A DNA stretch of 64,000 bases from Rhodopirellula sp. SM50 (GTDB lineage Bacteria > Planctomycetota > Planctomycetia > Pirellulales > Pirellulaceae), in contig NZ_NTFY01000072.1 of NCBI RefSeq assembly GCF_002289565.1, positions 1 to 64,000 of the forward strand. The letters are read 5' to 3'. The position numbers and the translations under genes are program-made. The notes under the pieces were generated by a model. That model ran no database searches. It was not told the DNA's origin and saw only the letters and a program-made list of their open reading frames with translations. Every line of letters starts with the position of its first letter. Positions within the stretch are counted from its first letter, which is position 1. This document shows, piece by piece, positions 18,443 through 57,090 of this stretch.

Positions 18443-18445
18443 AAG

Positions 18446-18890
18446 ACCGGAGGGCTTGCGCCCTGCCGCTAACCATCAACGATACGGGTTCGCGGAACGG
18501 CGCGAGCCGTCCGGTTGCGCATCAATAACAGCATGGAAACACCGGAGGGCGCGCGCCCTGCCGCTAACCATCAACGATACGGTTAGCGGAACGGCGCGAG
18601 CCGTCCGGTTGCACATCAATAACAGCATGGAAACACCGGAGGGCTCGCGCCCTGCCGCTCACAATCAACGATACGTGTTAGCGGAACGGCGCGAGCCGTC
18701 CGGTTGCACATCAATAACAGCATGGAAAGACCGGAGGGCTCGCGCCCTGCCGCTCACAATCAACGACACGGGTTCGCGGAACGGCGCGAGCCGTCCGGTT
18801 GCGCATCAATAACAGCATGGAACGACCGGAGGGCGCGCGCCCTGCCGCTCACAATCAACGAGACGGGTTCGTGGAACGGCGCGAACAAAC
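18446..18890. repeat. Family D: five tandem 95-bp palindromic units
   Basis: Five units begin at 18446, 18541, 18635, 18730 and 18825. Each opens with ACCGGAGGGC, holds GCCGCT then CATCAACGA, and closes with GGCGCGAGCCGTCCGGT before a linker CATCAATAACAGCATGGAA. The opening and closing segments of each unit are complementary, so each unit can form its own hairpin. The fifth unit decays at its end. The array lies between the hydrolase stop and the pnp terminator. Confidence 0.9.
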
Positions 18891-55378: not shown

Positions 55379-55813
55379 CTAGGGTGCGATCTGTTTCAGG
55401 ATCGCCGCAAACACCGCCTCGTTTTTGTCAAAATCACGACTCTCGGCCTGCATCTGAACCATCAGCACGTCTTCGCCGGCGGGGTCCCCGTCCGGCCGCA
55501 GGATCACGATCCGGCTGACGATCAACAGATCCAGGTAATAGAACCGCAGGTCCGTCACCGGCGTGTCGGCCGGCAGCACGTCCAAGCTGACGTCCTCGCG
55601 CTCCAGGTCCTCGTAATCGGCCGCGATCGCATCGACGATCTGCTCGATCAATCCCGGGACCTCGTCAGCCTTGGTCCGTTCGATCGAAAAAAATCCCCCC
55701 CCAGGAATATCCAACGTCGCCCCCTGATCCCCTTCCTCTTCGGCACGGTCGGCGACAGTCCAGTTGTCGGGATAGAGAAAACGGAGTCCGAAAGAGTCAA
55801 ATTGAGCAGGCAT
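55379..55813 (-). CDS. Conserved hypothetical protein, DUF1795/PsbP-like appearance
   Basis: A 144-residue acidic protein without signal peptide. It begins FDSFGLRFLYPDNW, the YP-x(2)-W opening seen in DUF1795/PsbP/DcrB-type alpha-beta sandwich proteins, and alternates strands and helices to VFAAILKQIAP. That fold assignment is inference. Function unknown. The ATG at 55813 (MPAQFDSF) is preferred over one 13 codons upstream. Convergent with the Fur-type gene (7 bp apart) and divergent from the TPR lipoprotein gene. Confidence 0.65.
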   Translation of the reverse strand: MPAQFDSFGLRFLYPDNWTVADRAEEEGDQGATLDIPGGGFFSIERTKADEVPGLIEQIVDAIAADYEDLEREDVSLDVLPADTPVTDLRFYYLDLLIVSRIVILRPDGDPAGEDVLMVQMQAESRDFDKNEAVFAAILKQIAP

Positions 55814-55971
55814 CAAATTGGCGGGCAAATCAGGGGGCTGTAAAAGGCGCAATTGCAGTGCAACGCATTTCGCTGGTATTTCTTGTTTCTGTCAATGCGT
55901 CGAAGTGCCAAAAATTCGGGCCACCATCACGGCCACCCTCGGCGTCGACCTTTTCCACCCAGCCTCGTCCG

Positions 55972-57090
55972 GTGACCAGCGTGCGTTCGAACAACCGCCC
56001 CAACCCGACCCTCGTGGCACCGGCGCGCAACACCGGCACCCGGTGGCGGGTGCTGGTCGGGCAACGCTGTGAAGCATTTTTTAGCGGTAGGGCGCGAGCC
56101 CTCCGGTATGTGGGCAAAGATGCGGAACCGGAGGGCTCGCGCCCCGCCGCTAACGCCTTAAGAAACACAGGGAAAAAATGCTTCACAGCGTTGCTGGTCG
56201 GAGTGGCGTTGCTGTCTCTGCTGTGTTGCAGCGTAGGCTGCCGTGCGATTCATGGGATTGGCGAAAGCCGTCAATCGATCGCCGCGCGAAAGTTATCGCG
56301 TCAGGGGCTGCAGAAAATGCGAGTGGGCAAGTGGACCGACGCCGAACAATTATTTGGCGAAGCCCTGGCCCTGTCCGATAAAGATGACCGGGCTCATCGC
56401 GGACTGGCGGAAACCTATTGGAATCGGGGGCAACGGGTTTCCGCGATCGAGCATATGGAAAAGGCGGTCGCGTTGAGCGCCGGTGATCCACGTTTGGTCG
56501 GCCGGCTCGGTGAAATGTACCTGCAAGAAGGGCAGCTCGAAAAAGCGGTGACGCAAAGTGAAATCGCGCTCGCGTCGGAACGCAACTCGGCCGAAATTTG
56601 GACCCTGCGGGGCGATTGTCTGCGACAGAAAGGGAACCAAGAGGAGGCGTTGGCGGCCTACCATCGCGCGCTCGCCCTGCAGCCGGATTACGTCGAGGCC
56701 AAGCTGCATGTCGCCGAGCTGTACCTGAACAGCAATCAGTACGATCGCATCCTGGCAACACTCGACCAGCTCGACCCGGTCGGTGACGAATCCGCCGCCC
56801 CCACTCGCGTGCACATGCTGCGTGGGATCGCGATGCGGAACCTCAATCGCCCCGAATTGGCGGCAAAACACTTTGCCAAGGCCGCCGAAAGTGACCCGCT
56901 GCGCGCCGAGCCGCATCTGCAACTCGCCGCGATTGAACTCGAAAAGGGGCGTCCCGACTTGGCCAGCCGATCCGTCGCCCGCGCCCTCCAACTCGATCGC
57001 CAACTGGTCGAATCGAGTGGCTGGAAGACCTACCTGTTGTCACCGGAGCAATTGGCGGCGCAGCAAGCCGACGAAGAGACACGTCGCTGA
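55972..57090 (+). CDS. TPR lipoprotein with a miniature element inserted in its signal-peptide region
   Basis: The mature part (from about 56230) contains at least five tetratricopeptide repeats (WTDAEQLFGEALALSDKDDR, RVSAIEHMEKAVAL, EEALAAYHRALALQPDYVEA) and a bacterial lipoprotein-type signal LLSLLCCSVGC. A 134-bp element plus a 7-bp duplication (141 bp, 47 codons) interrupts the N-terminal region in frame without a stop. Removing it joins ARNTGTRWRVLVG to VALLSLLCCSVGC, a normal signal peptide. The present start is uncertain: GTG at 55972, 55981 or 56014 would read through the element, and TTG at 56191 would start within it, giving 299 residues. TPR lipoproteins usually act as scaffolds in the envelope. 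Confidence 0.65.
   Translation: MTSVRSNNRPNPTLVAPARNTGTRWRVLVGQRCEAFFSGRARALRYVGKDAEPEGSRPAANALRNTGKKCFTALLVGVALLSLLCCSVGCRAIHGIGESRQSIAARKLSRQGLQKMRVGKWTDAEQLFGEALALSDKDDRAHRGLAETYWNRGQRVSAIEHMEKAVALSAGDPRLVGRLGEMYLQEGQLEKAVTQSEIALASERNSAEIWTLRGDCLRQKGNQEEALAAYHRALALQPDYVEAKLHVAELYLNSNQYDRILATLDQLDPVGDESAAPTRVHMLRGIAMRNLNRPELAAKHFAKAAESDPLRAEPHLQLAAIELEKGRPDLASRSVARALQLDRQLVESSGWKTYLLSPEQLAAQQADEETRR
56061..56194. mobile_element. 134-bp miniature inverted-repeat element (MITE)
   Basis: Perfect 22-bp terminal inverted repeats (56061-56082, beginning GCAACGCTGTGAAGC and ending in six T; complement at 56173-56194). They are flanked by the 7-bp direct repeat TGGTCGG (56054-56060 and 56195-56201). 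The interior is a family D palindrome (GGGCGCGAGCCCTCCGG with CCGGAGGGCTCGCGCC). It has no coding capacity of its own. No transposase with matching ends is in the window. Confidence 0.88.

Follow-up and report, generated by a model that had tools for sequence, protein, structure and literature searches.

Palindromic repeats lying in frame within genes are known from Rickettsia, where the palindromic elements (RPE) are about 150 bp long and have homologues that also sit in frame in further species (PMC10969869, PMC3733652). Pairs of REP sequences have been described inside longer or flanking palindromes, as in GTAG-15 of A. variabilis, CGTC-1 of H. neapolitanus and GTAG-23 of T. roseum, and many tyrosine transposase genes with flanking repeats are reported for R. 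baltica (PMC3733652). The small repeats RUP, BOX and SPRITE are described as inserting into one another (PMC3733652, PMC10969869). As far as the accessible text of these sources goes, in-frame palindromic repeats, REP dimers in longer palindromes and mutually nested small repeats are already known.

We know of no REPIN described with long outer inverted ends or target duplications. The element analysed here has both; it lies in a window of 64,000 nucleotides from Rhodopirellula sp. SM50 (the whole stretch of DNA that was analysed), in the signal-peptide region of a putative TPR lipoprotein gene. It is a composite in which MITE-type ends surround a REPIN, that is, a RAYT-type palindrome pair. 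What is new is a MITE whose core is a REPIN, together with an insertion at a signal peptide kept through speciation; a search of the open literature, with most subscription journals outside it, found no described family with these ends.

Results

Structure of the Element

The element at 56061–56194 is 134 bp long, and its ends (GCAACGCTGTGAAGC type) are 22-bp inverted repeats with 100% complementarity (Table 1). The original prediction, made from the letters of the window, had claimed a 134-bp element with perfect 22-bp ends, a TGGTCGG duplication and a palindromic core, and its coordinates are exact; it is also correct that element plus duplication make 141 bp, or 47 codons, without a stop in the frame of the open reading frame 55858–57090. 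The inner inverted repeat (56081–56107 and 56127–56153) is 93% complementary, and the first two bases of its first arm are also the end of the left terminal repeat. From its GTAG tag and GGGC-GCGA-GCCC hairpin we take this inner repeat to be a REP. The core therefore shows what defines a REPIN, namely two inverted REPs with a GTAG-type tag and a hairpin. In the asymmetric stretch, CCTTAAGAAACACAGG, six of 16 columns vary across four orthologues. As RNA, 56054–56201 folds into one long hairpin of −98.2 kcal/mol, against −52.8 ± 4.0 kcal/mol for 200 shuffles (z = −11.3), and the structure of the element is far beyond chance.

Table 1. Positions of the features in the window.
Feature	Position	Strand	Basis or remark
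Candidate start GTG	55972–55974	+	Kept in 4/4 carriers; aligns with GTG in 2/2 relatives without the element
Second candidate start	55981	+	GTG in three carriers, TTG in G003; three codons past 55972
Left target duplication TGGTCGG	56054–56060	.	Sequence; 7-bp duplications also at sister copies
Left terminal inverted repeat GCAACGCTGTGAAGCATTTTTT	56061–56082	+	Inverted-repeat comparison and genome copies
First REP arm of REPIN core	56081–56107	+	GTAG, then GGGC-GCGA-GCCC hairpin
Second, inverted REP arm of REPIN core	56127–56153	-	Inverted-repeat comparison
Asymmetric stretch, REPIN to right end	56154–56172	.	Sequence
Right terminal inverted repeat, KKCFTAL in the frame of the gene	56173–56194	-	
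Rival start TTG in right end	56191–56193	+	Kept in 4/4 carriers
Right target duplication TGGTCGG	56195–56201	.	Sequence
Rest of signal peptide, lipobox-like SVGC, TPR protein body, stop included	56203–57090	+	

A Large Mobile Family

At up to two mismatches, the focal genome contains 99 forward and 94 reverse copies of the first 21 end bases, with 0 and 0 for the reversed control; the genome search for further copies of the ends, proposed beforehand as a check, was thus positive. We then considered 89 distinct copies from four genomes (43, 17, 16, and 13; a sample, not a census), keeping end pairs of 120–150 bp with at most five mismatches. The length is 134 bp in 70 of these 89 copies. The duplication matches at 7/7 positions in 26 of them and at 6/7 or more in 52, and the match of the flanks is highest at register 7 (mean 77%, compared with 21–43% at registers 5, 6, 8, 9, and 10). 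The target of the sampled copies is palindromic, roughly ACC-CNGNCNG-GGT.

Movement can be seen at the locus L002, whose copy is 97.8% identical to the focal element and has the duplication CCAGCGG on both sides. G003 provides an exact empty site, running through one copy of CCAGCGG (CACCCCAGCGGGACGCGT), and a search allowing up to four mismatches detected no end in the fetched loci of this site in G001, G003, G012, G002, and G013; a free REPIN is present there in G001. The focal element belongs to a large mobile family with the properties of a MITE: it is short, has no transposase gene, and has inverted ends, a constant 7-bp target duplication, dispersed copies and demonstrated movement. The focal copy was also considered as the direct donor of L002 and L003, with which it shares states missing from the orthologues, yet the direction was left undecided because G012 and G001 also hold an altered element at the L003 site (by eye). 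In G026, at L142 (406–834), four head-to-tail ends with core lie 95 bases apart, with one opposite end on the far side.

No transposase with these ends was found in 30 loci out of 133 DDE_Tnp_1 matches and in 30 Y1_Tnp loci of four genomes; the search covered these two families, leaving out several DDE_Tnp_1 types of G012 and G001. A missing transposase partner is common for MITEs without a close autonomous relative. The examined IS4-type (PF01609) and Y1_Tnp loci were rejected as an autonomous partner, as the MITE ends are not convincingly present there; at the Y1_Tnp locus L179, an end pair at four mismatches of 16 fell away on reading. The DDE locus L233 has a single end at one mismatch, unpaired within the fetched stretch. 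End pairs 0.3–1.4 kb apart (L134, L135, L143, and L144, from G026, G012, and G001) were likewise rejected as an autonomous partner: by eye they look like neighboring or expanded miniature copies or nested palindromes, and no transposase was recognized in their reading frames. One of them, L135 (500–1221, G012), has a single MITE end pair enclosing about eight tandem REPIN units over 722 bp, and in L300 and L144 (G001) another palindrome family appears by eye to be nested within the core of a MITE copy. In the window, the minus strand of 50238–50918 matches DDE_Tnp_1 (24.1 bits; cut-off 23) within an open frame of 439 codons; it is flanked by an inverted repeat beginning GGGCATTGGTATCTACACAA and is therefore probably an unrelated insertion sequence.

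The REPIN Core and Its Counterparts in Other Genomes

The core REP has a cognate RAYT in a carrier genome: in G012, a Y1_Tnp gene (L197; 25.2 bits, cut-off 23) lies between REP arrays whose REPs differ from the core REP by one to three mismatches. The best relative of this RAYT in the focal genome is L203 (45% identical), at whose locus no match to the REP pattern was found at up to three mismatches. A free array of alternating REPs like those of the core, without MITE ends, is located at 18444–18870 of the window. A free REPIN is also found in L296, so that the core exists outside the MITE.

A draw of 296 genomes from the order contains 16 with the 18-base end (at most one mismatch), the focal genome among them, and the end is also present in G001, G012, and G026, which are outside this draw. 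We compared 14 elements from eight other genomes (G004 of the same genus and seven from other genera), picked where both ends were found, after excluding three longer or ambiguous pairs of 17. Their ends match the focal ends at 14–19 of 19 positions per side, and, compared with the focal core, none of the 14 cores outscores the best of its own 50 shuffles. Two of the 14 elements have a complete duplication, and seven have one that matches at 5/7 or more. Thirteen of the cores exceed 98 or more of 100 shuffles in folding stability; the exception is L170, for which nine of 100 shuffles are as stable.

The local abundance of the cores was determined in G004 and G178. In G004, the core REP has 170 copies (88 + 82) and the ends have 13 (8 + 5); in G178, there are 96 copies of the core REP and 46 ends, and many of these REP matches may fall inside elements. 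The core REP of G004 has two copies in the focal genome and 29 in G002, where no MITE ends were found. These data suggest that RAYT palindromes insert into the palindromic middle of the MITE and would then be carried along with it.

An Insertion Shared by Four Genomes

The downstream TPR gene has a best match in each of the 13 other genomes of the genus, and the insertion is carried by G000 (the focal genome), G001, G003, and G012. In all four, the last base of the element lies 12 positions before the base that opens query residue 2; the same insertion at the same place in four genomes therefore means one old, inherited insertion. G002 and G013, the nearest other genomes, have no element, in line with the expectation that relatives without the insertion exist, and the focal junction there is not alignable base by base; the remaining eight genomes of the genus have no trace of the element in the in-frame upstream translations. 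Distant orthologues with the same 47 codons, named beforehand as evidence against an insertion, did not appear; three of the 13 other genomes of the genus carry these codons, as one inherited insertion. In the tree, the element copies of the focal locus are not monophyletic, perhaps through conversion or recombination. This tree prompted us to consider separate insertions at a single site, but we judged them less likely: read by eye, G012 and G001 have states in common on both flanks, which suggests that the stretch recombined as a whole.

Gene, Signal Peptide and Start Codons

The product of the gene is probably a membrane-anchored protein. The dN/dS of the body is 0.026–0.060 over six carrier pairs and 0.049 for G002 against G013, values that indicate strong purifying selection on the TPR gene in carriers and non-carriers alike. 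The right end of the element reads GKKCFTAL, identical in all four carriers with synonymous changes only, and is followed by the old hydrophobic core. The signal-like stretch noticed here in the original prediction is kept in all four carriers, as KKCFTAL...LLSLLCC...GC (one W for L in G001). Carriers have KK, a hydrophobic core and S/T-V/A-G-C, with a lipobox that is weak at −3, and their best 11-residue hydropathy is 2.65–3.09, compared with 2.33 and 2.73 in the two relatives without the element.

Of the 16 blocks compared, variation is greatest in the one severed by the insertion, WRVLVGQR, where 11 of 24 columns vary; the last two codons of this block lie in the element. The claim that excision restores a normal signal peptide stands in part: TRWRVLVG then joins VALLSLLCCSVGC (by eye), but no in-frame ATG is found near TRWR in the four carriers, so that a "normal" signal peptide would need a start further upstream. 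An in-frame ATG exists in just one carrier, G003, where it precedes residue 2 by 104 codons. The signal of G002 could read MTRRLAAWACVLSLLCCTSVGC, and G013 is without an ATG there.

The stretch from GTG 55972 to the element is unlike constrained protein, and translation may therefore start later: dN equals or exceeds dS in five of six carrier pairs, and changes by codon position (12, 8, and 6) favor positions 1 and 2. Within the element the changes are flat (8, 5, and 7), and protein-like constraint is clear only farther to the right. The indel-free run from GTG 55972 through the element in the four carriers was rejected as evidence: these genomes show just two 1-base gaps immediately upstream, too few for a meaningful contrast. 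The start codon at 55981 aligns with GTG in both relatives without the element. The TTG at 56191 that had been predicted in the right arm is present and in frame, and GTG 56203 is a further start codon kept in all four carriers.

Open Frame and Other In-Frame Copies

The in-frame, stop-free state of the insert had been regarded as special, and this view has to be given up: 134 + 7 = 141 bp keeps the frame, and the 70 full-length copies include 54 that are open in the focal frame, the counts being 52 and 57 for two other frames and 0, 0, and 9 for the remaining three. The open frame was rejected as proof of selection because it is the usual state of the family and the orthologues are not independent.

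Flanks of more than 900 bp to both left and right are available for 58 copies. Ten of them have an open frame that extends for at least 30 codons to one side and for at least 100 to the other, and four of these ten are the focal locus in four genomes. The other six comprise five that look spurious or doubtful by eye and L025, which is the most convincing and was the only one included in the Pfam check. At L025 (1501–1634, G000 C131), a family copy lies in the same frame before a signal-like stretch of a PSCyt1/PSCyt2 protein, with no in-frame ATG, GTG, or TTG between the element and that stretch; the start must therefore be either the right-end TTG or an ATG preceding the element.

Discussion

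Overall, we read the locus as a non-autonomous MITE with a REPIN core that, in an ancestor, probably jumped in frame into a TPR lipoprotein gene, with an upstream GTG start and an unchanged mature protein, and we assign this reading a probability of about 60%. In this scheme, an as yet unfound transposase would act on the MITE ends and generate 7-bp duplications at palindromic targets, and a REPIN would have inserted into a MITE and travelled along with it. One copy would have jumped into the signal-peptide region of the gene in the ancestor of four Stieleria-group species and been inherited, the frame surviving because element and duplication make 141 bp. Translation would most likely still begin at the old upstream GTG, 55972 or 55981; the insert would add its residues to the n-region of the precursor, and KK-CFTAL, in front of the old hydrophobic core, would come from the right end. 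Cleavage at the SVGC cysteine would remove all insert residues, so the mature protein would be unchanged. The very stable hairpin could hinder translation through the element.

For the translation start, we lean towards GTG 55972, with 47 extra precursor residues, because a signal starting at TTG 56191 is without a basic n-region and this TTG lies in a hairpin stem; our confidence is only moderate because the upstream stretch shows no protein constraint. The same lack of constraint fits the rather unlikely alternative that the element replaced the translation start, so that a short precursor begins at TTG 56191 (or GTG 56203) and the upstream part is now leader. Both codons are kept in the four carriers, and the second locus L025, with the element in the same frame before a signal-like stretch, is consistent with it as well. 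However, the product would then start with MLVGVALL or MVALL and have neither K nor R in front of the hydrophobic core, the TTG lies within the stem of a very stable hairpin, and no sigma-70-like promoter was found at 55800–56300, although planctomycete promoters may differ. It is quite improbable that a leader which is 5' untranslated or under loose constraint merely tolerates the insertion, the open frame being accidental and any effect exerted through the mRNA hairpin. The frequency of the open frame in the family (54 of 70 full-length copies) agrees with this, as do the ten open-frame cases among 58 long-flank copies, since four are the focal locus and five of the other six are spurious or doubtful; on the other hand, without the frame of the right end, the signal lacks a basic n-region in all four carriers, and GKKCFTAL shows only synonymous change, though over just eight codons.

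The origin of the composite allows two further readings. The 7-bp duplications with an exact empty site are untypical of IS200/IS605-type enzymes. They argue, as does the constancy of the ends while cores differ between genomes, against the whole 134-bp unit being one RAYT-mobilized palindrome (TIRtron/REPIN) rather than a MITE enclosing a REPIN, and no convincing ends surround the 30 Y1_Tnp loci examined. We consider this very unlikely, even though no DDE transposase bearing these ends was found in the examined loci and RAYT-like genes flanked by non-REP inverted repeats are known, as far as the accessible part of the source describes them (PMC3733652). A broader form of our reading is more tentative, and we regard it as possible but doubtful: one set of ends across the order may repeatedly adopt the RAYT palindrome of each lineage as its core, and four species may have exapted one such chimera for a lipoprotein signal, where it would serve as the n-region and perhaps also as the start.

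Our preferred reading, the inherited MITE with a REPIN core, would provide a case in which a transposon has persisted within a signal-peptide region of a bacterium across speciation, and, since relatives without the element are available, the fate of the 47-codon insert is directly testable. Through ends that stay constant and cores that are lineage-specific, two mobile systems are linked, a MITE that has target duplications and the RAYT/REPIN system, and this pairing offers a way to study the target choice of RAYT palindromes.

Among the described systems, the Rickettsia palindromic elements resemble the focal element, judging by the available part of their description, as palindromic repeats in frame in genes; the focal element differs by its perfect 22-bp ends, 7-bp duplications and REPIN core, and only two plausible in-frame cases were seen among the copies of its family examined (the focal locus and L025). 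The nested REP dimers GTAG-15, CGTC-1, and GTAG-23 share with it, as far as their source text extends, the position of REPs within longer or flanking palindromes, whereas the outer palindrome here is mobile with target duplications and surrounds unrelated cores in other genomes. The Correia/NEMIS, RUP, ERIC, QMITE2, and Chunjie MITEs are, like the focal family, short, with inverted ends, target duplications, many copies and a stable RNA hairpin. The REPIN/RAYT systems match the focal core in their GTAG-tagged inverted REP pair, with a RAYT-type gene amid such REPs in G012, and it is the long outer inverted ends and the target duplications that set the focal element apart from them.
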